A stretch of 64,000 bases of DNA, taken from contig NW_024881826.1 of NCBI RefSeq assembly GCF_019059575.1, forward strand, positions 310,001-374,000. The letters run 5' to 3'. Each line of letters starts with the position of its first letter. Position 1 is the first letter of the stretch. A program made the position numbers and the translations under genes. Positions 2,174-64,000 of the stretch are shown piece after piece. The notes beneath the pieces were generated by a model. That model was not told the origin of the DNA and did not search any database. It worked only from the letters and a program-made list of their open reading frames with translations. This DNA comes from Amphibalanus amphitrite (Eukaryota; Arthropoda; Thecostraca; Balanomorpha; Balanidae).

Positions 2174-3157
2174 CCCTATTCCTGGCGGGCTCCGCCGGGA
2201 CAAGAAACTGGCGGGGGGGGCCGATTCGGCCCCCCCCTGAGATCTCGAGAACGAAGCAAGATAGCGACAAGCAGTAAACGGCATCGGATACGCACGGCCA
2301 AGATCTACAATTTTTACTAAGGTCATTTTCAGGTCAGGTCAAAGATGACGTCACAGGGGTCGAAAAAGTCAAAATGGCGGCACTAGACATGGAGAGAGTT
2401 TTTCTCGAATAACTTTCGAATTAGTCAAGATAGGAACAAACTAAGGGCATCATCGTGATCCTCTCGTCAATCCGCATCGAATGATATATATGTTGACCTC
2501 GAAAGGTCAAGGTCAAAGGTTGACCTCAGGTCACGTGACCTCGAGGTCATCATGTATATCATTCGATGCGTCTTGACGAGCTGAACACAATGAGACCATC
2601 CACGCGTCTGTATCTTGTTCCTGTACGGAGTTATTGGCCAAAAACCTTTGGTGACCTTTGATGACGTCACATGACCTCACAGCTGCCCAACAGCAAAACA
2701 GACCTCAAGGTAGTGAAGGTTGATCGTATATGAAGTCATGTATGGTATATGGGGCCATTCCGACCCGTTTTAGTGGTAAAAACAGGGAGTTAATTTTTCC
2801 CCCATTGACTTATAATGGGGAGGTCGCGAAATTGACCTGACCTTAGGTCACCGATATCAAAATTCCGAGATATACAAATTGTACATACTGGTACCCTAAC
2901 TAAACCCTGAAGAGAAGAAATTGATCGGTCAAAAACTCTAGCTCTGGCGTGATTGCAAACTTTTCTGAGGTAGCGTCACCAAACCGCCTCTGGTGACCTG
3001 ACCTGAGGTCAGATCAACTCAAAATTTTCAGACATGTTGCGTAGAAGCCTTTTAGGAAAAGTCAGAAAATTTGAGCTTCCTAGCTCAACGCGTTTGGGAG
3101 ATATAACCAAAAAACCTCAGGGGGGGGCTCCTGAGGCCCCCCCCCCGCCAGGAATAG
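2174..3157. mobile_element. Hairpin element (close relative at 32001-32977)
   Basis: It starts after TTAA with CCCTATTCCTGGCGGG and ends with the inverse, CCCGCCAGGAATAG. Just inside the left end is a G-run, CCGATTCGG, C-run hairpin; just inside the right end is a G-run, CTCCTGAG, C-run hairpin. The interior has many AGGTCA/TGACCT hexamers and TGACGTCA sites and aligns along its length with the 32-kb copy. The right flank does not show TTAA (it reads CCCAGCC), so that boundary is approximate. Confidence 0.7.
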
Positions 3158-3925
3158 CCCAGCCAGCAATTTTGCTCCGGGCCCAAGCAGGCTCAAGTGC
3201 GGATTGCCCGAGATTTTTAGTCGGGCTAAAGTCGGCTAGGGCTTGGGCTAAAGTCGGCGTATGACACAGAAACGCCGACTAAAGCCCATGCTCTGCCGGA
3301 GGTATGCCCGCTCTGCGAGCTCCGGGCAGCCGTAGTTTAGCCCTAGTTGAGCGACGATTGGCGTTAGCCCGATTTAAGCCCGAGCAGTGAATCCATTTAT
3401 ATAATGGAGATTACTCTGGGCCCGAGCGGGCTGAACTCCGGCAAGCCCACTCTGTGTGCCCTGTCTATCCCGACTTAAGCCATAGAAGTGAATGGGGTTT
3501 ATACATTGCAAACTGCTGTGGCTTTGCTCGGGTTCGGCTCGAGTGACGGCTCCTGTTTTCTCAAGTCTCGACTTGACTTCATCTTGCTTTTGCTTCACAC
3601 TGGATCAAGTAGCAAGGAGCAGCCAATGCACTTTCAGCAGGTTGTGTGGTTTTAATGCATATTTAAAATTGCTACGGTCACTCATATGCTCTGTCAACCG
3701 GTCATCGAGCATTGCGAAAGGAAAGTAGTGGTTGACTTTGATTTAATGTTTATTTCAAACGACTACAGACACGTCAAATGAAACACAAATACATGAAACA
3801 GTGGACTGCAAACTGCAGCAATAATATGGCATGAGTCATGAAAACGCGCCATCAAAACTATAAATCAATCACAAGATCCGCTAGCCTTCCTCCCCGTTCG
3901 GCGTTCATAATACTTGGTTGAACAC
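3158..3925. other. No recognisable gene; GGGCTAAA/GCCCGAG-rich unique DNA
   Basis: Repeated short motifs such as GGGCTAAAGTCGGC and GCCCGAGC occur at 3170-3450, with distant resemblance to 9800-10050. ORFs up to 78 codons are present on both strands without recognisable domains. Confidence 0.4.
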
Positions 3926-3929
3926 TTAA

Positions 3930-6303
3930 CCCGCGCCCCGCTGGGGGGGAGGGGCAGAATCTGCCCCCCCTCCCGTTTTTCGCCAATAACTTCTAAACGC
4001 GTTACGCCAGCGACGTCAAACTTTCAGTACCTTATCATACATCAATTTGACACGTTCCCTGAAAATTTGAGCGAAATCCGTCGGAATTTTTTTGAGAAAT
4101 TGACGTTTTAGTGACGTCATGTTCGCCATTTTCGCCTAAAAAACGGCAAAATTTCAAACGCCGCTAACTTCTTCATTTTTAAAGGAATCAAGACGTAACA
4201 AAAAAGGTTATACGTGATTCTACTTTGTCTATCAAATGGCTATCTCGGTTTATTGAAAATGTTGGATTTTTGCCAAAATTTTTAAAAAAAAACTGACTTT
4301 TTTGGGAAAATATTTATAAAATCCAAAATTTTGAGTTTATCGAAAAAACCGGAATATATGTCAAAGAAGTGGTCTATGTGCACCTACATACCAATTTTTA
4401 GAAGAATCGGTTCAAAAATGTGGGAGTTATTCAAAATTTTATGACGTCACGACAAATAAAAATTTTGAAAAATGATTTTTTTGGAAGTTCTAGACCTCGT
4501 ACGGAAATAGAAATAGCACCATTCGATTTGCCGTGAAAAACTGCATCGGATAGACACCTTTTTAGGCCTTAACAACCAACTTCAAAATTTGACCTCACTT
4601 GACCTGACCTTGACCTGACCTCGACCTGAAATTCATCCAGAGGTGGTCCATATCACTTATCCCGCGCCCTGCTGGGGGGGGGGTGTTTGAACACCCCCCT
4701 TGTGGTTTTTCGCAAATATCTCAAAAACGGCGGCGCGGAGCGCCGCCGTTTTTGGTACACCTTATCATGCATCAATTCTACACATGTTGTGAAAATTTCA
4801 GACCAAGGTCATTCAAGGTCAGGTCACCAGGTCACTTGAAGTGACCTCACCTCATAAAAAGTTTCAATGTCTGTCATAGCTACACCGAGTGACCGATCGC
4901 TTTGAAACTTTCAGCGATTGCTAAGAGCAATAGCATGTACAAAATGTATATCTCAGAATTTTGATATCGATGACCTAAGGTCAGGTCAATTTTGCGACCT
5001 CCCCATTATAAGTCAATGGGAGAAAATTGAAATGCGTCTCTTTTGGACGAAAGACATTATAAACACTCCCAAACACTGAATTACAAGTGGTTTAGACACA
5101 CTGAACATGAAAATGGTGTCCGTGACCCCTGTTTATGCCCTGAGGTCATCTTAGGTCACGAATGGTATCTAACAGTTTTTCGCAAATAACTTTTGATAGA
5201 GGCATGCTAGAGCGATGAAAACACCTTAGATGTGTTCAGCTCGACGATACGGATCGACTGATATGCAACATGACCCTTTCCGGTCAGGTCATGACCTTGA
5301 CCTGAGGTCAAATTTTCAAGTTGACCTTTCAAGGTCAAGTTATAGTTCGTTCGATGCGTTTTGACGTGAGGAACACGATGCCGGTAAAAGTAAGCTCGTA
5401 CAAGGCTTGGGTCAAAAGTTATTGCAGAAAAACTGTTTCCGAAAAAATCGGCTATTTTTTGCAGTTTTTGCCCCCTGCAGGCAAAACCGTTGACGTTAGG
5501 TCAAATCTGAGAGAATTACTCAGAAAGGGCGTTAATAGGGCTATCGAATGCGCTTTTCTGCGGCGCTGTAGCTCTATTGGTTCCCGAGTTATGCGTTGGC
5601 TTCTTGGAAATTTTCGACATTCGACCTGGAAATCGGCGAAATTTTGCCTTCAATGACCTCTGGTGACCTGACCTTTGACCTGACAAAAAAAATGACCAAA
5701 GTGATTTCGTCATTATTTTTGACGCTCTTTCGAACGCCGCCTTCCGCGTATCGCTACGTGGCCCAGGAGCCGAGTTAGAAGGGGGGGTGTTCAAACACCC
5801 CCCCAGCAGGGCGTGGAAATCCAGGACCCCCAGCCGGGCGCGGGTTATTGAGTGTGCCTATTGAATTCCATGAGTAAAATGACCCATAAAACATGTGTCG
5901 CACCTGCCCTTTTCTATATTTTGTTTTTGGTGACCTGACCTGACCTGACCTGACCTTGACCTTGACCTTTGAATGACATTGTGTGCAACGAATATTGTCT
6001 TGGTAGTCTAAGAACACGTTTTGGGCAATCAGTCTCAGTCCATTCTTCGGCAACTACGGTGCAAGGCCAATACTGTAGAAACTTGCATTTTGTACCCTTG
6101 ACCTGACCTTGACCTGACCTCTGACCTACTTAAGCAAAAAAATTTGGGCTCTTAAGATCCGCCTTGTTGAGAGCTTTCGATTGCCGTTTTCCCCGTCTTT
6201 CTACGACCATCGGTTCGGAAGTTAGACAGGGGGGGCAGAATCTGCCCCCCCCCCCCCCCCCCCAGCAGGGCGCGTATGGCTGAATAGCCCAGCGGGGCGC
6301 GGG
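3930..6303. mobile_element. Hairpin element interrupted by a nested relative
   Basis: It is bounded by TTAA at 3926-3929 and 6304-6307. The ends are CCCGCGCCCCGCTGGGGG and the inverse GGGGCGCGGG. The subterminal hairpins at about 3944-3979 and 6229-6265 both have the stem/loop CAGAATCTG between a G run and a C run. The interior contains TGACGTCA and AGGTCA arrays; the densest (5930-5970) has four tandem TGACC units, then TTGACC units. A second element (4661-5844) splits it, so the outer element's own sequence is about 1.2 kb. Confidence 0.75.
4661..5844 (+). mobile_element. Nested hairpin element with TTAT duplication
   Basis: TTAT flanks both ends (4657-4660 and 5845-5848). The termini are CCCGCGCCCTGCTGGGG and the inverse, ending GGGCGCGGG. 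Terminal hairpins have TGTTTGAACA (left) and TGTTCAAACA (right) between G and C runs. A second strong hairpin at 4724-4755 pairs ACGGCGGCGC with GCGCCGCCGT. It is non-coding: an ORF at 5321-5656 resembles no protein and its conservation in other copies is at DNA level. Same-orientation copy at 62971 to the window end; opposite-orientation copy at 12069-13238. Confidence 0.8.
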
Positions 6304-6954: not shown

Positions 6955-8855
6955 GGGGCATTCCACGATAGATCGTACCACTTTTTTCCAATTTGACACC
7001 CTCATCTCTCGGAATTTGACGAGAATTGGTCTCAGGGGTAATCAGGGGCTCTGAATCCACCTGTAACAATTTCAGGCTTATCAGATAAGTATTTTTTTGA
7101 GTTATGGTGTATAACATTTTTTGGATCTTGCTTTGCAGCGCTAAGTTTGGCGGGCTGTAACTCTAAGACGGATTATTCAAATGCCAAATGTTATATAACA
7201 TTGAACTTGCAATGAACCAGAGATTAATATGTATTTTTGAAATTTCGAAAAATACGCTATTTTTGATGTATGACATATCGAGTTTTCTTTCATTTGTATT
7301 TTTTGGACTTTGGGACCAAATTTTTTTGAATTTTTATTTTTCTAAAAAAATATTTAGCTCATTGTTAACAAATATGCAAAAAATTAGGAAGGTGTTCTTT
7401 CTATAAATGTATTTATTTTACGTCACGATAACGGTTTCGAATAGTGATTTCGGGAGGGGAGCTTACAAATGGCGTGGTAAAGCTGCCTAGTGACATCACG
7501 GGTTACTGAAATTTCAATTGAAGTCTGAGTCATCTGAAAAAAGTGAAAAGAGGGTTCATCCAACCCTCTTTCCTATAAGCGCGAGGGTGAAAAAGGCTGT
7601 TTGGTTCTGACATTGTTTTGGACGCCAACGACCATATCTGTCCGAGATGAAAGTTACAGGACGCATACATGGTGTCCTCCAGAGGTCTCACAACTTGTAT
7701 ATCTGGGAATTTTTAGGGTAACGTGAGGTCAGGTCGGTCACGTGACATCACTGTTATAAGTCAATGGGGAAATATAAAAACTGTTATTTTGGCGCCGAGA
7801 ATGATCTAAAACTATCCCACACGTACATGGTATCGTGAGTTCATGCACTTCTTGCAAAGTCCAATGCTTTTGTTTTGCATTGGTAACCTTGCGTGACGTC
7901 ATTTATGACGTCACTAGGGTCGTACGAGTTTTTCGTCAATAACCCCCGATCAAATGGAGCTAGAGAGTCGGGAAAGCCACCAATGGACTCGGGAAGACCT
8001 TCCGAATCAAATGATATGCCATATGATACCCTTTGCCCAGCTTCGTGACCTGAGGCGCTCTGACCTGACCTTGATCCGAGGTCAACTACTTAAGTTGACC
8101 TCACCCTAGCAAAAAGTATACCATTCGATGCACCTGAGCTAGGCGAACACAATGATGCCAAAATCGTGGCTCTGCGGTCATTTTTTGCGAAGTTATTTAC
8201 TAAAAACCGAACCCGTAACTTCAGTCACTTGACCTGACCTCAGACGCTACCGGTTAAATTGAGACCTTAAAATCGGGTACCAATCGCTGCGACTTGTTGC
8301 GGCACACACGCTCGTTTTTTCCGCGAGGCTCTAGCTCTGTTAGAAGCGAAATGGCGTGCTGGGGTCGTATCAACCCCTCCGAAACCCATTTTGTTTGCGG
8401 GAAAATGAGGATTTTATAGAAAGAACACCTTTCTAATTTTTTGCATGTCGATTTGCAATGACATGAAGTTTATTTTGAAAAAATAAAAATTTGAAAAATT
8501 TTGGTCCCAAAGGTCATTAGAGGCAAATGAAAAAAGATTAAGGTTTTTGCTCAACAATGAAAATTTTTCTTTGGAATTTTTAAATGGTAATATTAATTTT
8601 TGATTCATCGCCAGCTTAGTGTTGTTTACTGTTTGTTGGTAGCTTAACCCGTTCTTGAGTTATGGGCCATCAAACTCACCGTTACAAACCGAAATTAAAA
8701 AAATGTAATGCAATATAACTCAAAAAGTTTTGTTCTGAGAAGTCTGATATTTTGCTAGGCGTCTTTGGGACCTATGATTACCCCTAGGACGAATTTTCAT
8801 TAAAATCTGAGAGATGAGGGTGACGGGCCTGGTACGATCTATCGTGGAATGCCCC
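6955..8855. mobile_element. TIR element, GGGGCATTCCACGATAGATC ends
   Basis: Both ends carry GGGGCATTCCACGATAGATC in inverted orientation, followed by similar TCACCCTCATCTC-like blocks. The interior is itself roughly palindromic: 7188-7410 matches the reverse complement of 8410-8610. The uninterrupted target is preserved in tandem units of the paralogue (ACGGCACCCTACTAAC near 40955), indicating a 3-4 bp target duplication (CCT or CCCT; a C run blurs it). Shorter copies lie at 38879, 47445 and 61625. No transposase is visible; superfamily not assigned. Confidence 0.75.
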
Positions 8856-10058: not shown

Positions 10059-10733
10059 AGGAAGACTGCCACCTTCAAAAAGTTTTCTCAGATCGGCCTA
10101 TGATTTATTCCCTGGACAAAACAAAATTTTAGAATTCACCTGACAAAGTATCATCACGTGAATCGCGAAAAAATTGTCGATTATCATACAATTATCAATC
10201 GGTTAATGTCTAGCGACAATGTTTACACATCACTAGACTTCAAGGTCATAAGATTATTACATTTTATTTGAAAAAGTAAGGTATTTTGTGATTTACTAAT
10301 ATATGATTTCATAAGAAATTGGCCATGTTTAATTTATTTTGCATTTAAGTTCGTAAAACATTTAAAAATCATGGCTCATTTGGAATGGGTCTGGCCCATG
10401 TTAAACCCCATTTCCCACACTTTTTTGGAAAAATGAACTACTGAATATATAAGTTTAACTTTTATTTTGACTCTCCAAAATTCTTCTCTGATCTCGAAAC
10501 AATCAAAGTTATGACATATATTTACCAAAAGATAAGAAAATTCATGTTTCAAAGTTATCGATAAACAGTAGAGATGTCGGTTTTCTTGGACTAAAAAAAT
10601 GGCATCAAACTGAACTTTGGTCTCCGATTTCTCGCAAACGGGTTCGAATTTCGGAAAACCGACTTCAGTGTGGGACATAGGTGGCTCAGCTCTAGTGAAA
10701 ACCGTTTTGTGGAAAAAAGGTGGCAGTCTACCT
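10059..10733. mobile_element. TTAA-target miniature element, AGGWAGACTGCCACCTT TIR
   Basis: It is flanked by TTAA at 10055-10058 and 10734-10737. The left end reads AGGAAGACTGCCACCTT; the inverse of the right end is AGGTAGACTGCCACCTT, one mismatch. The interior is AT-rich and non-coding. Related by TIR style to the elements at 1693, 36803, 41617 and 50484. Confidence 0.85.
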
Positions 10734-11249: not shown

Positions 11250-11622
11250 TAAAGTGGTGCTCTACGCATGAAAATACAAAATTTCAGTTCATTCTCTTTC
11301 GTTTGAGGCATGATTCGCCTTAATCGGTGGCATAGCAAGGTCACACGACAAAAATAAAAAAGCTTCAAGACTCCTGGGACACCCTGTATTTGCAGATTCG
11401 TGGTCCATGGAATTGGACATTTCTGAACTACGTGGAACAGTCTAACTCAGCTTGGGAAAGGGCGGCAAATCCACCAATGTCGCGCTAATTCCGGCCGCGG
11501 TCCCATCGTGCAATGGCCCGTCTTTTTCAAGTTCAACCCTCACTGTAAACATCCTGTTGAACACATTTACAATGTTTGCTAGGTTAACCACTCAAAAATT
11601 GGTTGGTTCACATATGATTTAA

Positions 11623-11952
11623 CCCTCGCCCGTATTGGTGTTTTGCCAGCGTCTAACGTATCGTGCGTTGTTACTAACGTCACGATTTATATTTGACCTG
11701 AGGTCAAATCTAACAACAACACTCGGAAAGGCCTTTGAAAGAGCTGTTGAATGCGCTTTTCTGTGGCGCTGTAGCTCTATTGGTTCCCGAGTTATGCGTT
11801 GAGTGTTTGGGAAAATGTTGAAATAGGCAACATTTTACCTTTGATGACCTCTGGTGACGTGACCTTTGACCCAGGAGCCGAGTTAGACGGGGACGTGAAA
11901 ACGCCTCCCCCCAGCACGACACGGAAAACTTAGGCCACCAGCACGGCGCGGG
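11623..11952. mobile_element. Short hairpin element with mixed ends
   Basis: TTAA flanks both sides (11619-11622 and 11953-11956). The left end is of the CCCTCGCCCGTATTGG type, otherwise seen at 19573; the right end is of the GGCGCGGG type. Ends from two subfamilies on one 330-bp unit suggest recombination or an internally deleted hybrid. The inverted copy lies at about 17020-17350. Confidence 0.6.
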
Positions 11953-12068
11953 TTAAGTTCGACCCTCGATGTAAACAACACAGCACGATATTTGCTAGCT
12001 GAATTACTGAGAAAACTGGTTAGCGCACATTGTATTGAAGATATTTATATTTTCCAAATGTGTTTTAA

Positions 12069-13238
12069 CCCGCGCCCCGCTGGGGGTCCTGGATTTCCAC
12101 GCCTTGCTGGGGGGGGGGGTGTTTGAACACCCACTTCTAACTCGACTCCTTGGCCACGTAGCGATTCGCGGAAGGCGGCGTTCGAAAGAGCGCCAAAAAT
12201 AATAACGAAATCACTTCGGTCACTTTTTTGGTTAGGCTAAAGGTCAGGTCACCAGTGGTCAAAGGCAAAATTTCGCTGATTTTCAGGTCAAATGTCGACA
12301 GTTTCCAAGAAGCCAACGCATAACTCGGGAACCGATATAGCTACAGCGCCGCGGAAAGCGACTTCGATAGCCCTATTAACGCCCTTTCTGAATAATTCTC
12401 TCAGATTTGACCTAGCGCCAACGGTTTTGCCTGCAGGGGGCAAAAACTGCCAAAATAACCGATTTTTTTTTTTTTGAAAGTGTTTCTGCAAAAACTTTTG
12501 ACTCAAGCCTTGCACGAGCTTACTTTTACCAACATGACCTGACCGGAAAGGGTCATGTTGCATATCAGTCGATCCGTATCGTCGAGCTGAACACATCCAA
12601 GGCGTTTTCATCGCTCTAGCATGCCTCTATCAAAAGGTATTCGCGAAAAACTGTTAGATGCTATTCGTGACCTGAGATGACCTCAAGGGCATAAACAGGG
12701 GTCTCGGATACTATTTGCATGTTCAATGTGTCTTAGTTTCTTGTAATTCAGTGTTTGGGATTGTTTATAATGGCTTTGGTCCAAAAGAGGCGCTTTTCAA
12801 TTTTCTCCCATTGACTTATAATGGGGAGGTCGCAAAATTGACCTGACCTTTGGTCATCGATATCAAAACTCTGAGATATGCAGAGTTTATCTCAGTATAG
12901 TTTACAGCGCGGAGCGCCCCCGTTTTTGGCACACCTTATAATACATCAATTCTACACATGTTTTTAAAAAATTCAGACCAAGGTCATTTAAGGTCAGGTC
13001 ACCAGGTCACTTGAAGTGACCTCACCTCATGCAAAGTTTCAATGTCCGCCATAGCTACACCAAGTGACCGATCGCTTCGAAAGTTTCAACGATTGCTAAG
13101 AGCAATAGTATGTACAAAATGTACCTATTATAAGGTGTGCCAAAAACGGCGGCGCTCCGCGCTGCTGTTTTTGAGATATTTGTGAAAAAACACAGGGGGG
13201 GGGGTGTTCAAACACTTCCCTCCCCAGCAGGGCGCGGG
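12069..13238 (-). mobile_element. Hairpin element, reverse orientation
   Basis: It lies between TTAA at 12065-12068 and 13239-13242. It is the reverse complement of the 4661-5844 type: TGTTTGAACA hairpin near 12109-12133, TGTTCAAACA near 13196-13219 and an internal CGGCGGC hairpin near 13140-13170. Length (1170 bp) is close to the nested copy (1184 bp). Rich in TGACCT/AGGTCA; non-coding. Confidence 0.75.
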
Positions 13239-13317
13239 TTAAACACCGATGATGTACCGTAACGCCATGCGATTGACTAACCGGCGCCGGGCCGGTGCTC
13301 GGCGCCACCTGCACTGG

Positions 13318-14465
13318 GGGGGGGGGGGGTTTGAACACCCCCCCCCCTTCTCACTCGGCTCCTGGGCCACGTAGCGACACGCCGTAGGCGGCGTTCGAAA
13401 GAGCGGCAGAAGTAATGAAGAAATTATATCGGCCACATTTTAGGTCAGCTCAAAGGTCAGGTCAACAGAGGTCACCAAAGGTAAAATTTCGCCACTTTCC
13501 AGGTCAAACTTCGATAATTTCGACAAACCAGCGCATAGATTAGGAACGGTTTAACGTGCAGGGGCCAAAAACTGCCAGAATAGGTAGATGGTTTTTGCGG
13601 GAACTGTTTTTCTGCAATACCTTTTGACTCAAAACATGCACGAGCTTACTTTCAGCAGCATCGTGTTCTTCTCGTCAAGGCGACGCATCGAAAGAACTAT
13701 AAGTTGACCTCAAAAGTTCAACTTGAAAAATTTACCCTAGGTCAAGGTCATGACCTCATGACAAGGTCATGACCTCAGGTCAATGTCATGACCTGACCAG
13801 AAAAGGTCATTCTGCATCAGTCGATCCGTATTGTCGAGCCAAACACATACATACAAGGTTTTTTCATCGCTCTAGCATGTCTCTGTCAAGAGTTATTTGC
13901 GAAAAATTGTATCGTGACCTGAAATGACCTCAGGGACATAAAGAGGGGTCACGGGTACCATTTTCTGGTTCAGTTTGTCATGTCTACTTGTAATTCGATG
14001 TTTGAAAGTGATTAGAATGACGTTCGGCCAAAAGAGGCGCCTTTCAATTTTCTCCCATTGACTTATAATGGAGAGGTCGCAAAATTGAACTGACCTTAGG
14101 TCATCGATATCGAAGTTCCGAGAGATACATTTTGTATGTCATTGTTATAATTATTGTATGCATTATGTGTATTGTGTAGATATACTGTTGTTTTAAAAGT
14201 TGCTCAAAGTTTCAAAGTGATCAGTCACTCGGTGTAGCTGTGACAGGCATTGAAACTTTCCATGTAGTAAGGTCACTTGACGTCATATGGTGACCTGACC
14301 TTGGATGACTTTGGTCTGAAGTTTTCACAGAAGGTGTAGAAAAGATGTATGATAAGATGTGCAAAACACGGCGGCACTCTGAGCCGCCGTTTTTTTAGAT
14401 ATTCGCGAGAAACCGGAGGGGTTGTTCAAACAGTTCCCCCCCCCCCCCCGCAGTGCGTGGGCAGG
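13318..14465 (-). mobile_element. Hairpin element, diverged ends
   Basis: Both ends carry long G or C runs around TTTGAAC-type palindromes (13318-13348 and 14415-14450). The interior matches the previous element, with a variant inner hairpin at 14366-14396. No TTAA is visible at the left edge, so boundaries are approximate. Its right part is repeated in inverted orientation at 16400-16890. Confidence 0.55.
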
Positions 14466-16399: not shown

Positions 16400-17580
16400 T
16401 ACCCACGCACTGAGGGGGGGACTGTTTGAACAACCCCTCCGGTTTCTCGCGAATATCTAAAAAACGGCGGCTCAGAGTGCCGCCGTGTTTTGCACATCTT
16501 ATCATACATCTTTTCTACACCTTCTGTGAAAACTTCAGACCAAAGTCATCCAAGGTCAGGTCACCATATCTCGTCAAGTGACCTTACTACATGAAAAGTT
16601 TCAATGCCTGTCACAGCTACACCGAGTGACTGATCACTTTGAAACTTTGAGCAACTGATAAAACAACAGTATACACAATACACATAATGTATACAATAAT
16701 TATAATAATGATACACAAAATGTATCTCTCGGAACTTCGATATCGGTGACCTAAGGTCAGTTCAATTTTGCGACCTCTCCATTTTAAGTCAATGGGAGAA
16801 AATTGAAAGGCTCCTCTTTTGGACCAAAGCCATTATAAACACTCCCAAACACTGAATTAGAAGAAACTAAGACACATTGAACATGAAAATGTCATAACCG
16901 GGAACGCGTGCTCTCACCACGCGGAGTCCAACGCTCTAACCAACTGAGCTACGGGACCGGCTACTAATTCAGCTAGCAAATATCGTGATGTGTTGTTTAC
17001 ATCCAGGGTCGAACTTTACCCGCGCCGTGCTGGTGGCCTAAGTTTTCCGTGTCGTGCTGGGGGGAGGCGTTTTCACGTCCCCGTCTAACTCGGCTCCTGG
17101 GTCAAAGGTCACGTCACCAGAGGTCATCAAAGGTAAAATGTTGCCTATTTCAACATTTTCCCAAACACTCAACGCATAACTCGGGAACCAATAGAGCTAC
17201 AGCGCCACAGAAAAGCGCATTCAACAGCTCTTTCAAAGGCCATTCCGAGTGTTGTTGTTAGATTTGACCTCAGGTCAAATATAAATCGTGACGTTAGTAA
17301 CAACGCACGATACGTTAGACGCTGGCAAAACACCAATACGGGCGAGGGTTAAATCATATGTGAACCAACCAGTTTTTGAGTGGCTAACCTAGCAAACATT
17401 GTAAATGTGTTCAACAGGATGTTTACAGTGAGGGTTGAACTTGAAAAAGACGGGCCATTGCACGATGGGACCGCGGCCGGAATTAGCGCGACATTGGTGG
17501 ATTTGCCGCCCTTTCCCAAACTGAGTTAGACTGTTCCACGTAGTTCAGAAATGTCCAATTCCATGGACCACGAATCTGCA
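16400..17580 (-). repeat. Mosaic of inverted hairpin-element copies
   Basis: 16400-16890 is the reverse complement of the right part of the 13318-14465 element and resembles 12720-12890. 16965-17580 is the reverse complement of 11395-11995, including the mixed-end element and the GGACCGCGGCCGGAATTAGC block. The tRNA-like fragment sits at the junction. Confidence 0.75.
16896..16960 (-). tRNA. tRNA-Arg-like 5' half (SINE head or tRNA fragment)
   Basis: On the minus strand an acceptor-like GGTCCCG is followed by TAGCTCAGTTGGTTAGAGC, a good A box and D arm, then TTGGACTCCG, where CCG sits at the anticodon position. Downstream the anticodon stem does not close, and the T arm stops at CCCGG before a B box. 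It is a tRNA-derived fragment, not a functional tRNA, and is absent from the inverted relatives. Confidence 0.5.
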
Positions 17581-17582
17581 AA

Positions 17583-19572: not shown

Positions 19573-20412
19573 CCCTCGCCCGTATTGGTGTTTTGCCAGC
19601 CTCGAACGTATAGGGGGGGGGGCGGGTCCGTTGGACCGCTCCCCCCTTGCCGTTTGGCCCCTGATCGAGCTAGAGCTTCGAGAAAAAATTTAAGGTCCTA
19701 GGTCATTGGTTGAATTTCCAGGTCAGGTCAATGACCCACAAGTCTGGAAAATCGGGACCTGTTAGAACATCGTAAAGTGAGGTTGATGAGGTTTTTTCGG
19801 GGTCCTGATCACGAATATCGTGTTAGTTTTGATCACAGATGATGTCTTAATGCATTTAGGCCAGGTCAGGTCAGGTCAGGCCAATCAGTAGACGTCCTGC
19901 CAGGTATTCATAGTACGTGTCAGCCGTTACTGACAGCTTCGTAACATGTTACGAAGACACCAAAACAACTTCGTAAATGCTCAAATAGTTGCTTAATTCG
20001 AAATCAGCTCCAAAAAGTAGCCTAGAAACATGCAAAATTCGAAGAAGTGAACCTAGGTCATCAAAGGTCAATGATCTGACCTGACCTTCAGGTGACCTTG
20101 ACACCCACGCATGGGACCAACATCATATCACATGTTTGAACGCTTGAAACCGCAAAAATACTGCAAACGCGCGGCTAATACGAGCCGACATACGCCGAAT
20201 CGCGATTCCGGCCAAACATGGTCTCGAAAAATAGGCCACAGGTCAAGGTTCATTTGGGACAGGGTCATGAAATTTTAAGGGTAAGTGTACAATTGATTGA
20301 CTCGATAGTACTGAAAGTTTCATCGCGATCAACCACTTTTTACGCGAGTTATTCGCGATAAACCATGGGGGTGGGGATCCGTTCGACCCCCCCCCCCCTA
20401 TACGGGCGAGGG
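19573..20412 (+). mobile_element. Hairpin element, CCCTCGCCCGTAT subfamily
   Basis: It lies between TTAA at 19569-19572 and 20413-20416. The left end is CCCTCGCCCGTATTGG; the right end is the inverse ATACGGGCGAGGG. Subterminal hairpins are GGTCCGTTGGACC (left) and GGATCCGTTCGACC (right) next to G/C runs. The interior has the tandem AGGTCAGGTCAGGTCA run at 19863-19882. Its right TTAA is shared with the next element. Confidence 0.8.
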
Positions 20413-32000: not shown

Positions 32001-32977
32001 CACGCGCACCGACGGGGGGGTGGATGACCGCCCCCCCCCCCTGAGATCTCGAGAACGAAGCAAGATAGCGACAAGCGGTAAACGGCATGGGATACGCACG
32101 GACAAGGTCTACAATTTTTACACAGGTCATTTTCAGGTCAGGTCAAAAATGACGTCACAGGGGTCAAACAGTCAAAATGGCGGTGCTAGATATTGCGATA
32201 GTTTTTCTCGAATAACTTTCGACTTAGTCAAGATAGGAACAAATTAAGGGCATCATCGTGATCACCTCGTCAATCCGCATCGAATGATACATATGTTGAC
32301 CTCGAAAGGTCAAGGTCAAAGGAAAGGTTGACCTCAGGTCAAGTGACCTCGAGGTCATCATGTATATCATTCGATGCGTCTTGACGAGCTGAACACAATG
32401 AGACCATCCGCGCGGCTGTATCTTGTTCCTGTACGGAGTTATTGGCAAAAAACCTTTGGTGACCTTTGATGACGTCACATGACCTTACAGCTGCCCAACA
32501 GCAAAACAGACCTCAAGGTAGTGAAGGCTGATCGTATATGAAGTCATGTATGGTATATGGGGCCATTCCGACCCCTTTTAGTGGTAAAAACATGGAGTTG
32601 ATTTTCCCCCCCATTGACTTATAATGGGGAGGTCGAGAAATTGACCTGACCTTAGGTCACCGATATCAAAATTCCGAGATATACAAAATTGTAGCTACTA
32701 ATGACCTTATATCATCCTGCGACTTTCAAAGGCCTCCGACATCTACTGTAGTTCTGGCACGGTGACAAAGTTGCAAAAAAGTGACGAGGTTGGGTCATTC
32801 AAAGTGACCTGGTGACCTGACCTTTAAAGGTAGGAGGTTTAAACTTGCACACCATATGTAAAATTGATGAGAGAATAGTCGTACCAAATTTCGCGACGCG
32901 TAGCGCCGCGGTTTTCCCGCTATTCGCGAAAAACCTCAGGGGGGGCGGATATTCGCCCCCCCCCCGTCGGTGCGCGT
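32001..32977. mobile_element. Hairpin element with perfect 19-bp TIR and ATAA duplication
   Basis: Both ends read CACGCGCACCGACGGGGGG in inverted orientation, flanked by ATAA (31997-32000 and 32978-32981). Just inside are G/C-run hairpins, GGTGGATGACCG-like at the left and CGGATATTCG at the right. It aligns throughout with 2174-3157 apart from the terminal blocks. The interior carries AGGTCA pairs (32110-32360, 32640-32830) and TGACGTCA. Non-coding. Confidence 0.85.
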
Positions 32978-32981
32978 GATA

Positions 32982-46964: not shown

Positions 46965-47440
46965 CCTGATGGTCTTATAACCAACACCATTGAGTTGGAA
47001 ATGAAAACTGGCCATAAAACATGCATCGCACAACCTTAGTAAAGTTGGGTTCATGTGGTGACCCTTGGTTACCTTTGGTGACCTGACCTGTGACCTGACC
47101 TGGTATGACCAGTGACCTCTAATAGCAACATATGTACTAGACAACTGACGCCTTATCGCTGATTTTCGACAAAATGCGTTTCACTCGGTGTTATAGCGCT
47201 TTCCCTAGAAGCCCCGTGAACGGTGAAACATTTTATCTTTGACCTGACCTGTGACGTCATCGGTGACCCCGAGGTCAATGAAATTTGCTTTCTTTCGACA
47301 AATTTGACAGGGCTATCGAACGCCGTTTGAATTTTCCGGATCCGTCCAGCAGTTTCGGAGATACGAGGGGGGGGCAAAAAATGCCCCCCCCCCCCGCGCG
47401 GAAGGTGGCCGGGAGGCCCAACGCCTGCCGGGTTACGGGA
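46965..47440 (-). mobile_element. Hairpin-element fragment with GGGGCAAAAAATGCCCC hairpin
   Basis: It aligns with 36360-36760 (TGACCTGACCTGTGACGTCATCGG and the CTATCGAACGCCGTTTGAATTTT segment). The terminal hairpin at 47367-47395 has GCAAAAAATGC between G and C runs, a further sequence variant that still pairs. The outer TIR has decayed and no TTAA flank is visible. Confidence 0.6.
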
Positions 47441-52185: not shown

Positions 52186-52193
52186 TCGTTCCG

Positions 52194-52352
52194 CAGTGGC
52201 GGATCAAGGGATGGGCTCGCGGGGTCATGCTATTCCTCGTGAGATCCCCATGAGATACCTAGCGCACTGATTTCTTTACCCACACAAAGGTAAGAGACGC
52301 CATTTATGTAACCACCTCCGCCCTTCCTCTGAATTTCCTGGATCCGCCCATG
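52194..52352. mobile_element. Short hAT-like element, CAGTGGCGGATC ends
   Basis: The left end CAGTGGCGGATCAAGGGA and the inverse right end CATGGGCGGATCCAGG belong to the same TIR family as 14639 and 37439. Only 159 bp remain and no 8-bp duplication is evident, so the right boundary is approximate. Confidence 0.55.
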
Positions 52353-56702: not shown

Positions 56703-58367
56703 CTATGACCGTGGGTTGGCATAGGTAAGTCTGGAGTGCCGGGTCCGAGCTGTCTGTGTGAATGGGCAGTTAAGTAACACATGCTCCTCAGTCTGCACCT
56801 GTCCACAAGCGCAAACACGCCTATCTCTTTCGATCCTCGCCCATCTTCCTGTCTCTATCTTTAGGAAATGTGAACCAAGACGAATCTGACTAAATGCTAA
56901 TCTATCAGCTTCCGGTACAGTTGTGTCTGCGTAAATCGGGTGTAAGGTCAAATTTGGATTAAACAAGATGTAATTTTCTCTCCTTGACGTATGAGCTTGG
57001 CTAATCCTAGCCTTTACAATTTCTAGGTCCTTTTCTATCGGTCTGTCCGTGCTGTTCACGAGGCCCTGTAAATAACGTCCCGCGGGAAATCCGGCCGATC
57101 GAGCCAGCTCAGCTGCTCTAAACAAAGGGCTCTGACCGTAACTACTTTGTGACATTACTTTCTTGAAAAAATCCTTTTGTCTTTGCTGCACCCATGCTTT
57201 TGCTGATCCCGAGCTCAATTCTACTTGAACTAGGTCAGTGCAGGTCTGTGTACGAACCCCCAACATTTGTTTCTGGGCCGTCATCATTACACTATTCGCG
57301 CACTGCATATCATTACAAAGCCAGCTTTCGCACCCGTACAAAATGGACGCTTTTAATGCACTCTCCAGCACCTCTCTTTTCACTTTAAGCGGTGCATCCT
57401 TGTTCTTCCTCAGAAAAGCGGAAAACTTTCTGATATGTCCTCGCTTTGCATCAATGTGTGCTTGCACTTGATTTTTGATGGGCGCATTTGATATGTTCGA
57501 TCCCAAATACATATAACTATCAGTGTAGCATATTCTAGCATTTTCTATCTCAAAAGGCCTTTTGTCAGTTACATTAATTGTCATAAACTGGGATTTGGTT
57601 GGATGCATGGACATATTTATCTCTTTTGCAGCATCATACAGCAGCTTGAGTTTCAATTCCATGCTCGTTCTTGAAGTAGCTAATATAACCGTATCGTCCA
57701 TAAAAAGCAAAGAATGCAAATTCCCGAGATAACCATCCACGCCGAACTCCTTCAGCTTTTTAATTGTTTCATTTATATAAAAGGTGAACAACGAGCAACT
57801 GTTAGCTGCACCCTGCTTAACCCCACGGTATGAATGAAATGATTCGCTTCCTAGGACGTTGACTTTATCTTTAAAACTGTTTGCAATGGCTCGAATAAAA
57901 TTTTGCCCGCATCCTTTTGAAGCCAATAGCCTCAAAAGCAAGTTCCTATCTACCTTGTCATAGGCCTTGACATAATCAACAAACATGATATACAAGCTCT
58001 GTTTTGTTTTCCGTGCGTAATCTATTAAGAGCCGCAGTGTCAGCAGCTGTTCTGGGCACCCTCTACCCTCCTGTCCTCCAGCTTGTTCAAGATCTGGCTT
58101 AAACCACGCACAGAATCTTCTGTTTAGTACCGCTTCATACAATTTAGCCAATGCCACCTGAATGCTAATTCCGCGATAGTTATTAGTATCATGCTTGTTT
58201 CCTTTCTTAAAAATGGTAAACATCTTAGCTGCAGTCCACTGCACCGGATAGCCTATTGTAAAAACCATATTGAGTAGAACACATAAAACGTTAAGCCAAT
58301 CCGAAGGTAACAGTTTTAAGGCCCCTGGAGGAATTCCATCCGTGTCCGCCGCCTTACAGCTTTTCAA
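56703..58367 (-). CDS. Non-LTR retrotransposon reverse transcriptase
   Basis: The minus-strand frame gives 554 residues of RT from a non-LTR (LINE-like) element. Motifs in order: SCKAADTDGIPPGALKLLP, MFTIFKKGNKHDTNNYRGIS, MFVDYVKAYDKVD with catalytic Asp131, YRGVKQGAANSCSLF, FMDDTVILATS with Asp224 and Asp225, a long thumb/connection, and a carboxyl Cys-His motif (Cys519, Cys521, His529, Cys534). The RT core is intact. The frame from the palindrome arm (DDPITIDEVVT) meets it out of phase at about 58368-58385, so a small indel separates the upstream coding part. No apurinic-type endonuclease is seen; clade not assigned. No clear poly-A tail follows the stop. Confidence 0.9.
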   Translation of the reverse strand: MKSCKAADTDGIPPGALKLLPSDWLNVLCVLLNMVFTIGYPVQWTAAKMFTIFKKGNKHDTNNYRGISIQVALAKLYEAVLNRRFCAWFKPDLEQAGGQEGRGCPEQLLTLRLLIDYARKTKQSLYIMFVDYVKAYDKVDRNLLLRLLASKGCGQNFIRAIANSFKDKVNVLGSESFHSYRGVKQGAANSCSLFTFYINETIKKLKEFGVDGYLGNLHSLLFMDDTVILATSRTSMELKLKLLYDAAKEINMSMHPTKSQFMTINVTDKRPFEIENARICYTDSYMYLGSNISNAPIKNQVQAHIDAKRGHIRKFSAFLRKNKDAPLKVKREVLESALKASILYGCESWLCNDMQCANSVMMTAQKQMLGVRTQTCTDLVQVELSSGSAKAWVQQRQKDFFKKVMSQSSYGQSPLFRAAELARSAGFPAGRYLQGLVNSTDRPIEKDLEIVKARISQAHTSRRENYILFNPNLTLHPIYADTTVPEADRLAFSQIRLGSHFLKIETGRWARIERDRRVCACGQVQTEEHVLLNCPFTQTARTRHSRLTYANPRS

Positions 58368-58380
58368 GCGTTTAACTGAA

Positions 58381-58660
58381 CTGTCACTACTTCATCGATG
58401 GTGATCGGGTCATCGAGAATGGGAACATACATATTTACTGTTGGACATTCTATACCCCTACCTTCAGTCGAATCTAGTAAATTATTGAAGTGTGATTTAA
58501 ATTCCAAATCAGATGGCCCGTCTTTGCCATTAGGGAGCTCAAATTCTCCACGCCAGTTAATGGCTTTCCAGATAGCCTTTGGATCTTCTATACCTAAGAG
58601 TTTCTGCCATCTTGAATGTGCGCCAAGTGACTCGCGATGTCCGTCGACACCTTAGCTCAC
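58381..58660 (-). pseudogene. Non-LTR element, region just upstream of RT
   Basis: On the minus strand the frame AHSRWQKLLGIEDPKAIWKA, FELPNGKDGPSD, DDPITIDEVV is the usual segment preceding the RT of non-LTR elements. It is shifted relative to the RT frame. The same coding segment occurs on the plus strand in the other palindrome arm, ending at 61622 where it stops dead without any RT. The open frames on the opposite strand at 58398-59095 are shadows. Confidence 0.7.
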
Positions 58661-59129
58661 TACAAGCTTAGCTCACTCGCCGCTTCATGGCTTGGATCGT
58701 GTTATAAACACAATACTACTGATTTCTATTTTTTGTCCACGCAGGGACGGTTCGGCCTGAATCGCTTGCAGACAGAGTCTTTCCATATCTTCTCCTCGAC
58801 TGATGAACTGGCGAAACTGTCGTTCCACAGCATCTTTTCTGCAGGATGCCATCTTTGCCGTTTCTTCAACTATATCACTACAGGAGGGTTACTTTTTCTT
58901 GCTTGTTGCTCCGTGCACAGTACACACCACTTTCACAGTCACTATCGGCTGTTCGTGGCTGTGGATGTCCTTGGACATTTTTACTTCCCTCACCATCTTC
59001 CTTTCCTCGGTCATCACTTGCTTCCATTTCACTTTTTCAGAGCTTGTCGTCATCGCCGGTTTTGCCAGCCACTCCCTCTACGGTCGTCAAGTTAGATGTA
59101 AGTGAATCCTTATCTATAATCTAAGATTC

Positions 59130-59645
59130 GGAATCAGGTGAGCCCCTACGATTTGGACCAAACTTGGTCAGTAGATAGTACGTAACGTCCTGATTACGAT
59201 GCACCCAAAATCTAAGCTCGGCCCGCCATATTTACGAAGTTACGGATGTTTGAATTTCAAGGTCATTCGGGAGAGCCCCTACGATTTCCGTCAAAATTTG
59301 TGTACGGACACTCTAGATACTCCTCATTACGAATATCACAAAATTTAAGCTCGGCCCGCCATATTTACGAAGTTACGGAGGTTTGAATTTCAAGGTCATT
59401 TGGGTGAGCCCCTGCGATTTCCGTCAAAATTGGTATACGGACATATTACATCCTCCTCATTACAAATATCATAAAAGTTAAGCTCGGCCCGCCATATTTT
59501 TCAAGTTACGGAGTCACAAAGTTACGGAATTTCAAGGTCATTCGGAGAGCCCCTCCGATTTTCGTCAAAATTTGTATGCGGACACATTACATGCTCCTCA
59601 TTACGAATATCGTAAAAGCTAAGCTCGGCCCGCACTATTTCAAAA
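59130..59645 (+). repeat. Tandem repeat, about 118-bp units (mirrored in the other arm)
   Basis: Four units share GAGCCCCTACGATTTCCGTC, ACTCCTCATTACGAATATC and AGCTCGGCCCGCCATATTT. The mirror array is at 59689-60059 and 60721-60890. Confidence 0.85.
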
Positions 59646-60059
59646 GTTAGAGATGTTTGAATTTCAGTGAGTTTCAAACGTCAGTAACTTTTGAAATAGT
59701 GCGGGCCGAGCTTAGCTTTTACGATATTCGTAATGAGGAGCATGTAATGTGTCCGCATACAAATTTTGACGAAAATCGGAGGGGCTCTCCGAATGACCTT
59801 GAAATTCCGTAACTTTGTGACTCCGTAACTTGAAAAATATGGCGGGCCGAGCTTAACTTTTATGATATTTGTAATGAGGAGGATGTAATATGTCCGTATA
59901 CCAATTTTGACGGAAATCGCAGGGGCTCACCCAAATGACCTTGAAATTCAAACCTCCGTAACTTCGTAAATATGGCGGGCCGAGCTTAAATTTTGTGATA
60001 TTCGTAATGAGGAGCATCTAGAGTGTCCGTACACAAATTTTGACGGAAATCGTAGGGGC

Positions 60060-60720: not shown

Positions 60721-61624
60721 GTAGGGGCTCTCCCGAATGACCTTGAAATTCAAACATCCGTAACTTCGTAAATATGGCGGGCCGAGCTTAGATTTTGGGT
60801 GCATCGTAATCAGGACGTTACGTACTATCTACTGACCAAGTTTGGTCCAAATCGTAGGGGCTCACCTGATTCCGAATCTTAGATTATAGATTAGGATTCA
60901 CTTACATCTAACTTGACGACCGTAGAGGGAGTGGCTGGCAAAACCGGCGATGACGACAAGCTCTGAAAAAGTGAAATGGAAGCAAGTGATGACCGAGGAA
61001 AGGAAGATGGTGAGGGAAGTAAAAATGTCCAAGGACATCCACAGCCACGAACAGCCGATAGTGACTGTGAAAGTGGTGTGTACTGTGCACGGAGCAACAA
61101 GCAAGAAAAAGTAACCCTCCTGTAGTGATATAGTTGAAGAAACGGCAAAGATGGCATCCTGCAGAAAAGATGCTGTGGAACGACAGTTTCGCCAGTTCAT
61201 CAGTCGAGGGGAAGATATGGAAAGACTCTGTCTGCAAGCGATTCAGGCCGAACCGTCCCTGCGTGGACAAAAAATAGAAATCAGTAGTATTGTGTTTATA
61301 ACACGATCCAAGCCATGAAGCGGCGAGTGAGCTAAGCTTGTAGTGGGCTAAGGTGTCGACGGACATCGCGAGTCACTTGGCGCACATTCAAGATGGCAGA
61401 AACTCTTAGGTATAGAAGATCCAAAGGCTATCTGGAAAGCCATTAACTGGCGTGGAGAATTTGAGCTCCCTAATGGCAAAGACGGGCCATCTGATTTGGA
61501 ATTTAAATCACACTTCAATAATTTACTAGATTCGACTGAAGGTAGGGGTATAGAATGTCCAACAGTAAATATGTATGTTCCCATTCTCGATGACCCGATC
61601 ACCATCGATGAAGTAGTGACAGAA

Positions 61625-62880
61625 GGGGCATTCCACGATAGATCGTACCAGGCCCGTCACCCTCATCTCTCAGATTTTAATGAAAATTGGTACAAGGGGT
61701 AATCATAGGCACCAAAGACGCTTAGCAAAATATCATAATTCTCAGATCAAAACTTTTTGAGTTATATTGCATTACATTTTTTTAACTTCGGTTTATAACG
61801 GTGAGTTTGATGGCCTATAACTCAAGAACGGGTTAAGCAACCAACAAACGGTGAACAGCACTAAGCTTGCGATGAATCAATGATAAATATTACTTTTTAA
61901 AAATTCCAAAGAAAAATTTTCTTGGTTCAACAAAATTCTTAATCTTTTTTCATTTGCCTCTAATGACTTTTGGGACCAAACTTTTTCGCATTTTTATTTT
62001 TTCAAAATAAACTTCATGTCATTGCAACTCGACATGCAAAAAATTAGAAAGGTGTTCTTTCTATAAGTTCCTCCTTTTCCCTCAAACAAAATGGGTTTCG
62101 AGGGGGTTAATACGACCCCAGCACGCCGTTTCGCTTCTAATAGAGCTAGAGCCTCGCGGAAAAAAACGAGCGTGTGTGCCGTTACAAGTCGCAGCGATTG
62201 GTGCCCGGTTTTAAGGTCGCAGGTTAACCGGTAGCGTCTGAGTTCAGGTCAAGTGACTGAAGTTACGGGTTCGGTTTTTAGTAAATAACTTCGCAAAAAA
62301 TGGCCGCAGAGCCACGATTTTGGCATCATTGTGTTCGCCTAGCTCAGGTGCGTCGAATGATATGATTTTTGTTTGGGTGAGGTCAACTTAAGTAGTTGAC
62401 CTCGGGTCAAGGTCAGGTCAGAGCCCCTCAGGTCACGAAGCTGGTCAAAGGATGTCATATGACATATCATTCGATTCGGAAGGTCTTTCCGGGTCTATTG
62501 GTGGCTTTCCCGACTCTCTAGCTCAACTTGATCAGGAGTTATTGACGAAAAACTCGTACGACCCTAGTGACGTCATAAATGACGTCACGCAAGGCTAGCA
62601 ATGCAAAAGTGAAGCCATGGACTTTGCAAGGAGTGCATGAAATCACGATACCATGCACGTGAGATAGTTTTAGATCATTCTTGGCGCCAAAATAACAGTT
62701 TTTATATTTCCCCATTGACTTATAACAGTGATGTCACGTGACCGACCTGACCTTATGTGACCTTTAAAAATTCCCAGATATACAAGTTGTGAGACCTCTG
62801 GAGGACACCATATATGCGTCCTGTAACCTTTATCTCGGACAGCTATGGTCATTGGTGTCCAAAACAATGACAAAAAAATG
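61625..62880 (+). mobile_element. GGGGCATTCC element, truncated
   Basis: It begins with the family TIR GGGGCATTCCACGATAGATC two bases after the palindrome ends and follows the reverse complement of 8855 to about 7610. The distal end is lost near 62880. Confidence 0.75.
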
Positions 62881-62966
62881 TCAATAGGGGGGTAGAGGGG
62901 GGTAAAAACGGGCAAATTGCAGATACATTTTAGACTGTTTACCACGGTCAGGTTTCTGAACCAATC
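62881..62966. other. Short unassigned spacer
   Basis: G-rich GGGGGGTAGAGGGGGGTA tract at 62886-62903; otherwise nothing. Confidence 0.4.
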
Positions 62967-62970
62967 TTAA

Positions 62971-64000
62971 CCCGCGCCCTGCTGGGGGGGGTGTTTGAAC
63001 ACCCCCCCTTGTGGTTTTTCGCGAATATCTCAAAAACGGCGGCGCGGAGCGCCGCCGTTTTTGGTACACCTTATCATACATCAATTCTACACATGTTGTG
63101 AAAATTTCAGACCAAGGTCATTCAAGGTCAGGTCACCAGGTCACTTGAAGTGACCTCACCTCATAAAAAGTTTCAATGCCTGTCATAGCTACACCGAGTG
63201 ACCGATTGCTTTGAAACTTTCAGCGATTGCTAAGAGCAATGGCATGTACAAAATGTATATCTCAGAATTTTGATATCGTTGACCTAAGGTCAGGTCAATT
63301 TTGCGACCTCCCCATTATAAGTCAATGGGAGAAAATTGAAATGCGCCTCTTTTGGACGAAAGACATTATAAACACTCCCAAACACTGAATTACAAGTAGT
63401 TTAGACACACTGAACATGAAAATGGTGTCCGTGACCCCTGTTTATGCCCTGAGGTCATCTTAGGTCACGAATGGTATCTAACAGTTTTTCGCAAATAACT
63501 TTTGATAGAGGCATGCTAGAGCGATGAAAACGCCTTAGATGTGTTCAGCTCGACGATACGGATCGACTGATATGCAGCATGACCCTTTCCGGTCAGGTCA
63601 TGACCTTGACCTGAGGTCAAATTTTCAAGTTGACCTTTCAAGGTCAAGTTATAGTTCATTCGATGCGTCTTGACGAGAGGAACACGATGCCGGTAAAAGT
63701 AAGCTCGTACAAGGCTTGGGTCAAAAGTTATTGCAGAAAAACTGTTTCCGAAAAAATCGGCTATTTTTGCAGTTTTTGCCCCCTGCAGGCAAAACCGTTG
63801 ACGTTAGGTCAAATCTGAGAGAATTACTCAGAAAGGGCGTTAATAGGGCTATCGAATGCACTTTTCCGCGGCGCTGTAGCTCTTTTGGTTCCCGAGTTAT
63901 GCGTTGGCTTCTTGGAAATTTTCGACATTCGACCTGGAAATCGGCGAAATTTTGCCTTCAATGACCTCTGGTGACCTGACCTTTGACCTGAGCAAAAAAT
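62971..64000 (+). mobile_element. Hairpin element, partial at window end
   Basis: It follows TTAA at 62967-62970. The start CCCGCGCCCTGCTGGGG, the TGTTTGAACA hairpin (62983-63008) and the ACGGCGGCGC stem (63033-63063) are the same as in the 4661-5844 element, and the two run in parallel with few differences to the end of the window. The right end lies outside. Confidence 0.85.

Follow-up and report, generated by a model that had tools for sequence, protein, structure and literature searches.

The ends of the piggyBac transposon differ in length, with 35 bp on the left (LE35) and 63 bp on the right (RE63), the latter with an insertion of 17 bp and a duplication. A 19-bp palindrome is present in each and, according to the accessible part of the published account (PMC7351741), two cysteine-rich domains (CRDs) dimerise on bp 17–33 of one left end, with the centre near bp 25, and bend the duplex DNA; the DNA-binding domain contacts bp 7–16. 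The same part of that account reports that 5 extra bp in the right end lower activity by about half and that transposition of native piggyBac in cells requires one left-type and one right-type end (PMC7351741). In piggyBat, from Myotis lucifugus, the palindrome lies at bp 19–30, is bound by two CRDs and, in the portion of the source available, is described as unrelated in sequence to that of piggyBac (PMC11707139); binding sites are therefore known to differ between families. Here we describe transposons with variable palindromes at their ends in a 64,000-nt stretch of the Amphibalanus amphitrite genome (NCBI RefSeq assembly GCF_019059575.1, contig NW_024881826.1, positions 310,001 to 374,000 of the forward strand; hereafter the window). 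These very probably belong to the piggyBac superfamily as non-autonomous elements, mobilised in trans by transposases of piggyBac type that the same genome encodes.

Ends and target sites of the window elements

A first-pass annotation of the window, made from its letters, had reported palindromes of differing sequence set between a G run and a C run just inside the element ends. All seven palindromes that it named were found where it had placed them, and the signature is real: five or more Gs, 6–20 nt and five or more Cs follow one another 19 times in the window, compared with 0–1 times in each of 20 Markov resamples. That annotation did not include two features, the asymmetry between long and short ends and the 4-bp target duplications.

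The elements are 840–1184 bp long (A 1183 without its insert, B1 1184, B2 1170, C1 1157, C2 1167, D 978, E1 840 and H 984). Target site duplications (TSDs) of TTAA, as expected for the superfamily, flank A, B2, C2, E1 and K; TTAA directly adjoins one end only of C1 and of the window copy of H. Element A (3930..6303, forward strand, tip CCCGCGCCCCGCT) has a short end on the left, with its palindrome at 3951–3970 (CAGAATCTG), and a long end on the right (palindrome 6229–6263). Nested within it is B1 (4661..5844, forward, TSD TTAT, tip CCCGCGCCCTGCT), with a short end on the left (4674–4699, TGTTTGAACA) and a long end on the right (5781–5804). The B family further includes B2 (12069..13238, reverse; long end left with the palindrome at 12109–12132, short end right at 13195–13225), B3 (62971..64000, forward, palindrome 62984–63008), which is 98% identical to B1 and cut by the window end, a decayed copy (13316..14462, reverse, palindrome remnants at 13316–13347 and 14418–14449) and a partial one (16401..16891, forward, palindrome 16414–16437). 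C1 (20417..21573, reverse) has its long end on the left (20462–20482, CCGTTTCGG) and a decayed short end on the right (21540–21560); C2 (35632..36798, forward, tip CCCGCGCCCCGTA) has its short end on the left (35645–35672, CCGAAACGG) and its long end on the right (36732–36752). E1 (19573..20412, forward, tip CCCTCGCCCGTAT) begins with a long end (19613–19646, GGTCCGTTGGACC) and finishes with a short one (20367–20398), as does H (2174..3159, forward, tip CCCTATTCCTGGCGGG), where the palindromes are at 2213–2237 (G8 CCGATTCGG C8) and 3120–3146 and the right target duplication was not found in the window. D (32001..32978, forward, TSD ATAA, tip CACGCGCACCGAC) has two short ends (32014–32041 and 32939–32965). 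Two single ends complete the set: X47 (47367..47432, reverse), with long-type spacing, its dyad at bp 54, the palindrome GCAAAAAATGC and no tip repeat found, and G7 (7547..7587, reverse, tip CCCTCGCGCTTAT), whose palindrome arms are not homopolymers (AAAGAGGGTT..AACCCTCTTT), whose dyad is at bp 29 and for which a partner end was looked for and not found. No piggyBac domain was present in the 20 open reading frames (ORFs) scanned, of the 58 of at least 110 aa in the window, and no transposase was found in that scan inside the window copies.

Most elements have one short and one long end. Short ends consist of a 13-nt tip, a G run, the palindrome and a C run. In long ends the tip module is repeated 26–28 bp further inward, and the palindrome follows. 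The repeat at this distance occurs in 8 of 9 window long ends, with scores of 7.5–12 and offsets of 27 (A, B1, B2 and K), 28 (C1 and C2) and 26 (E1 and H), X47 having none; this count leaves out the left end of K, which when scored separately has its best repeat at 26 with a score of 5, and sets the right end of K one base off. The best repeats in the 10 window short ends score only 3.5–6, at offsets of 19–37. It is the repeat distance and not the sequence that is kept, because the spacers between the repeats differ among A, B, C, E and H. The dyad, i.e. the centre of the loop, lies at bp 24.5–31.5 of the short ends and bp 52–64 of the long ends of the window; measured against bp 25 of piggyBac, it is within 6.5 bp in the window and within 8 bp in loci fetched from the genome. 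As a control, a dyad at bp 20–35 was found in 0 of 12 ends of RR..YY (Kolobok-like) TTAA elements from the same window, versus 13 of 21 CC-type ends.

Pairing between families

Sixteen distinct loops of the window, decayed ones included and aligned without slippage, contain 39 Watson-Crick pairs out of 78, where shuffling within loops gave a mean of 21.3 (P 2e-5) and slid controls gave 21/69 and 20/62; this test repeats an earlier one on 12 loops, which had left out nine same-family ends, the right end of K and the end F31. When columns were shuffled among the ends of ten loops, a mean of 15.2 pairs was obtained versus the 27 of 40 observed (P 4e-5), and for the four homologous short ends of A–D the corresponding values were 7.8 and 14 of 16 (P 0.0025). 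Conservation among A–D is lowest in the palindrome core, with 17/48 identical, versus 59/78 in the tip and 161/264 and 164/270 in the interior.

The first-pass annotation had held that both ends of a copy usually carry the same variant and that pairing survives in every variant. The former is the case in five of the eight two-ended copies (A, B1, B2, C1 and C2, whose loops are identical or at most one letter off), roughly so in E1 (9/12, flipped) and not so in D (6/10) and H (4/9); a loop flipped relative to the tip gives the better end-to-end match in A, C1, C2 and E1. Pairing is indeed kept across variants beyond chance, but 'every' is too strong: the loop at 47.4 kb forms two of four pairs, both E1 loops contain mismatches, and decayed ends are broken (the right end of C1 and those at 13.3, 16.4 and 11.9 kb).

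The window's own genome (807.55 Mb in 2644 contigs) was searched for further ends. Short ends with a CCCGCGCCC tip gave 5157 forward matches and none with the reversed pattern, the reverse-strand count of 21440 being inflated by alternative C-run ends. Short ends in which bp 10 is not T numbered 2057 + 2059, CCCT-type short ends 3120 + 3158, and long ends with GCT tips and a free gap of 5–35 2778 + 2804, with no match to the reversed pattern. Among 100 listed GCT-tip long ends, the repeat offset is 27 in 97, 26 in two and 35 in one.

Twenty-two distinct family loops were taken from the listed rows of the three short-end searches (5157, 2057 + 2059 and 3120 + 3158 matches). Of the 66 cases given by the three pairs that lie just inside the G and C runs, 54 are Watson-Crick; the column-shuffle mean is 24.1 (P 2e-5, in shuffles that ignore relatedness between families) and slid controls gave 19/66 and 13/66. 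Only these inner pairs test covariation, since G and C runs were required by the search patterns themselves. Pair 2 is C-G in six loops, G-C in six, T-A in four and A-T in three, and pair 4 is near chance. In this set, four tips that repeat the loop of another family were counted once, the register used for the loop of tip CCCTCGCCCGCAC was the one with fewer pairs, and tip CCCTCGCCCGTAT (five rows, all different) was represented by the E1 form of the window; the set excludes some single-row or broken loops (tips CCCTCGCCAGCCG, CCCTCACCGGCCG and CCCTCACCCCTAT) as well as the loops of D, X47 and G7 from the window.

Transposases in the genome

A PF13843 profile search yielded 116 matches in this genome and matches in 0 of 14 control genomes. 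Four families encode a DDE_Tnp_1_7 transposase between G-run ends of the window type, and two of them have the CCCGCGCCC tip at the long end. In the first, loci L160, L162 and L164 have both ends with TTAA on both sides and L163 has one end (frames of 646, 586, 639 and 646 aa); L160-type ends are CCCTAGAACGCCTA-G-TTGTATCAA-C (short) and CCCTCGCACGACCAGG with a 27-bp repeat (long). L170, with a 645-aa frame and TTAA on both sides, has the long end CCCGCGCCCTGGTG (27) and the short end CCATTTTGG. L173 and L175, which lie on one contig, together have the long end CCCGCGCCCCGTT (27), the short end CCAATTTG, a 673-aa frame and TTAA on both sides; nested here is a complete copy of H, itself flanked by TTAA on both sides (L173:280-1266). 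Finally, L174, which holds the transposase L156, has the long end CCCTCGCCGGCACA (27), the short end TTGATGCAA, a 504-aa frame together with other elements, and flanks of TTAA and TTAG. The tips start with CCCT in E, H, G7, L160 and L174, with CCCG in A, B, C and the long ends of L170 and L175, and with CACG in D.

Compared with the PDB, L160 matches piggyBac (6x67) at E 2e-78 in an alignment that runs through the CRD, and piggyBat at 3.2e-30 with the CRD not covered; L170 matches 6x67 at E 1.2e-56, also through the CRD. Both alignments reach the last cysteines of 6x67, i.e. a piggyBac-type C-terminal CRD. By eye, a cysteine pattern of this kind is also seen in the tails of L156 and L173, the PDB comparison having covered L160 and L170. 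In a tree of 25 proteins, L160, L163, L156, L170 and L173 form one clade (100/100); the tree is midpoint-rooted, the tool warns of long branches, and a label count (2 changes), made before the ends of L156 had been located, scores L156 as unlike the others. Transposases of the L160, L170, L173 or L174 type, or close kin of these, probably move the window copies. A transposase for the tips TGCT, CGCT and CGTA was not found in a search that was not exhaustive.

G runs are absent from the TTAA-CCC ends of some other piggyBac families in the genome. In one of these the left end of L129 (L129:416-450) contains a perfect 20-nt palindrome with the dyad at bp 24.5, and in another the right end of L155 (at 3465) contains CGTATCATTTATGATACG, with the centre, counted by hand, at 24.5.

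Exchange of ends

Over 667 nt, from a point inside the left C run onward, H and D share 94% identity, yet they differ in their tips and palindromes. The right part of D is 72% like the B short end. Element K (11623..11952, forward, TTAA on both sides) is a chimera in which an E-type long tip on the left (95% over 39 nt) is joined to a B-type long end on the right; its palindromes are decayed, and a second, inverted copy lies at ~17019-17348. Since H and D share an interior with different ends and K joins two end types, interiors have passed between end types. K is present in both arms of a 620-nt inverted duplication (99%) at 11387-12006 and 16965-17584.

End-to-end conversion or interior capture between families, acting on top of a binding-site function, could explain both the shared end variants and the mosaics, and is a serious possibility, though less likely than not. 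The H/D interiors, the resemblance of D to B and the make-up of K all speak for it, as do the coral CMITEs, in which a conserved interior with different terminal inverted repeats (TIRs) is described in the accessible part of the source (PMC2872659). The first-pass annotation had offered homogenisation of each copy by such conversion, which is possible; the two loops of one copy differ in H and in D, however, and the exchange may have run in either direction.

Changes within families

Conserved pairing had been read in the first-pass annotation as a sign that DNA or RNA secondary structure is maintained. On such a view a folded single strand would be what is recognised, or would give rise to small RNA, and compensatory changes would keep it folded. 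The compensatory changes between families agree with this reading, and the G and C runs would make very stable stems. It is nonetheless very unlikely. Among 200 rows listed, six variants of the same length break a pair without compensation (TCGATGAGA, ACGATGCGA, TCGATGCAA, TTGATGCAG, CTATTTTTAG and CTGTTCATAG) and none restores one, although these within-family numbers are small; one ambiguous row, TTGGTGCCA (usual loop CGGGTGCCG), has both sides of one pair changed and another pair broken, and may represent another subfamily. G.T mismatches are not favoured, accounting for 4 of the 28 non-Watson-Crick cells across the family loops. Direct 4-bp target duplications and a DDE transposase point to duplex cut-and-paste, the sites lie near the position of the duplex palindrome bound by the CRDs of piggyBac and occur with piggyBac's tip duplication, and a folded strand explains neither the tip distance nor the 27-bp repeat. 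Because families covary and changed-arm copies inside families show no compensation, symmetry is a property of the family founder. This fits the duplex site of a homodimer and argues, on small numbers, against structure kept copy by copy; recognition by a transposase, which the same annotation had also named, is the likely reason for the kept pairing.

Small-RNA hairpins were considered and rejected. Transposons that recognise hairpins in single-stranded DNA (IS200/IS605-like elements and Helitrons) have no target duplication and no TIRs; both are present here, and these systems were ruled out.

Least probable of all is the absence of selection, a reading in which slippage during replication, together with template switching, in quasi-palindromes rich in G/C would repeatedly copy one arm onto the other and flip the loop. 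It may still explain the range of G-run lengths within families (6 to 16) and the flipped loops of A, C1, C2 and E1 but predicts that copies stay paired, where uncorrected single changes are seen, and leaves unexplained that three common tips are each tied to one loop. Among 100 rows listed, and with decayed forms included, the CGCT tip occurs with the CAGAATCTG loop in 24 of 24 rows, the CGTA tip with CCGAAACGG in 24 of 24 and the CACT tip with CTAT..ATAG in 44 of 44; the tips of the remaining eight rows are variants, and in seven of these rows one of the three loops recurs.

Other repeats and genes in the window

RR..YY elements (AGG..CCT termini, TTAA-flanked, Kolobok-like) lie at 1693-2169, 10059-10733, 36803-37299, 41367-42765, 41617-42510 and 50484-51265, and at 2170 and 36799 one TTAA is common to such an element and its piggyBac-like neighbour. 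A G run, near-palindrome and C run also occur in another repeat family, at 8361-8377 (TCGTATCAA), 39305-39323 (TCGGTACGA) and 62102-62119 (TTAATACGA); the flanks of these sites resemble the long-type ends of L172 and L175 by eye, and they may be remnants of the same class. An 85-nt module (CCATTGACTTATAATGGGGAGGTC...) is common to the interiors of several element families (2794-2878, 12800-12884, 14047-14131, 32603-32687 and 62704-62788), with 66-96% identity to the first copy.

A 902-nt inverted repeat, 100% complementary, spans 58381-59282 and 60721-61622, and inside it is a second one of 392 nt (98%), nearly head to head, at 59275-60059. Degenerate short-period repeats are found at 30061-31196 (15 nt), 37451-38036 (20 nt) and 51949-52212 (11/22 nt). 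Mobile genes recognised by Pfam are a DDE_Tnp_4 transposase (23180-24136, reverse), a DUF3504/tyrosine-recombinase-like gene (43289-44035, forward), an integrase with DUF5641 (44585-46030, forward), which we take to be BEL/Pao-like, and a reverse transcriptase (56703-58388, reverse).

Discussion

Recognition of the ends by a piggyBac-type transposase would account for both the pairing and its failure to be restored within families. The CRD probably binds the palindrome, with specificity probably set by the 3-bp triplet that the G and C runs enclose. A transposase homodimer would read both half-sites alike through its CRDs, so each family's site would have to be a dyad; upon a change of specificity both halves and both ends would have to follow, leaving a site that resembles a hairpin with conserved pairing. 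The tip (bp about 7-16) would be read by the transposase core. A second dimer site, as in piggyBac RE63, would arise in the long end, where tip module and palindrome are displaced inward by 26-28 bp.

These ends may also embody a natural recognition code, a tentative proposal that we rate a little short of even. The CRD dimer would anchor on the G run and read the variable 3-bp triplets that flank a short centre, a switch of triplet, often together with the tip, would give orthogonal families, and new ends would capture interiors, as in H/D and K. The sisters L160 and L174 (L156) have TTG..CAA at the short end in both, and the short ends of the sisters L170 and L173 are CCATTTTGG and CCAATTTG (CATTTTGG at L175). 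This pattern, a single contrast, would fit a CRD-triplet code.

Several observations count against the assignment of the window copies to piggyBac-type transposition. No transposase with the exact tips of A, B, C or D was present among the loci fetched, a search that was not exhaustive, and the TSDs of B1 and D depart from TTAA. The A-D tips (CCCG, CACG) differ from the CC[C/T]T motif quoted in the accessible part of PMC2872659. Both ends of D are short and both ends of K are long, where the rule of native piggyBac is one of each, and the distance from tip to dyad changes with the G run by several bp (24.5-31.5 within the window, as much as 33 at L166), though phasing matters in piggyBac. The tip repeat is lacking in X47, is weak and at 32 in the long-type end of L172, and in 3 of 10 short ends the best, weak, repeat also falls at 26-28. 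Tips and palindromes also combine in more than one way: CCATTTTGG is seen with several tips and TTGATGCAA with three, TGGT pairs with CTATTTTTTG and also with CCATTTTGG (L170), and TGCT occurs once with TCGATGGGA, at L175:287. The choice of best-fitting dyads biases toward pairing, a bias that the shuffles and slid controls correct in part. Finally, G-run ends may extend beyond the five-protein clade, as the ends resolved do not cover many other transposase families (L140, L153, L154, L157, L165, L168, L169, L171 and L172).

So far, two solved systems, whose palindromes are unrelated, have supplied what is known of piggyBac end recognition. With thousands of ends, about twenty versions of the palindrome and four or more transposase families whose CRDs can be read, this one genome makes the rules of specificity directly testable, and the palindrome series could yield orthogonal piggyBac tools. 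More generally, conserved pairing near transposon ends need not imply a folded strand.

In the parts of the literature on piggyBac structure, piggyBac tools and CMITEs that were accessible, which leave subscription sources largely uncovered, no account of G-run palindromes was found, and five tip sequences matched against literature text had no occurrence. A search of viral contigs for the tip returned 0 stretches; at least 120 tip stretches in prokaryotic contigs were set aside, having been judged, from titles alone, to match by chance in bacteria of no relation.

The first-pass annotation knew of no described family with this signature, which is wrong in kind, as piggyBac carries it in the accessible description (PMC7351741). 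In kind, the signature is accounted for by piggyBac; what is new is the design of G run plus triplet, how many versions a single genome contains and that ends have been exchanged. Kolobok elements share the TTAA target, and elements with such termini lie beside the present ones in the window, but their termini are given as RR..YY in the accessible part of PMC9587614, whereas the elements described here read CC.. or CA.. inward; on this ground, and from the lack of a dyad in the RR..YY ends, Kolobok was ruled out. The coral CMITEs, which are piggyBac miniature inverted-repeat transposable elements, resemble the window elements in TTAA, CCC tips and a conserved interior with different TIRs, and differ in being about 100 bp long and in that the accessible part of their description contains no G-run palindrome (PMC2872659). 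In piggyBat the CRD fold is another one, three sites are on one end and none on the other (PMC11707139, in the part available), and the L160 alignment with it lies only outside the CRD. The closest likeness is to piggyBac of Trichoplusia ni (PDB 6x67/6x68), which, in the available part of its account, has TTAA, ends that differ by 28 bp in length through an insertion and tip duplication, and a duplex palindrome, and to which the genome's transposases L160 and L170 are homologous through the CRD; the dyad is near bp 25 there and at bp 24.5-31.5 in the window short ends, and the palindrome here is a G run with a variable 3-bp triplet, present in about twenty versions in the genome.

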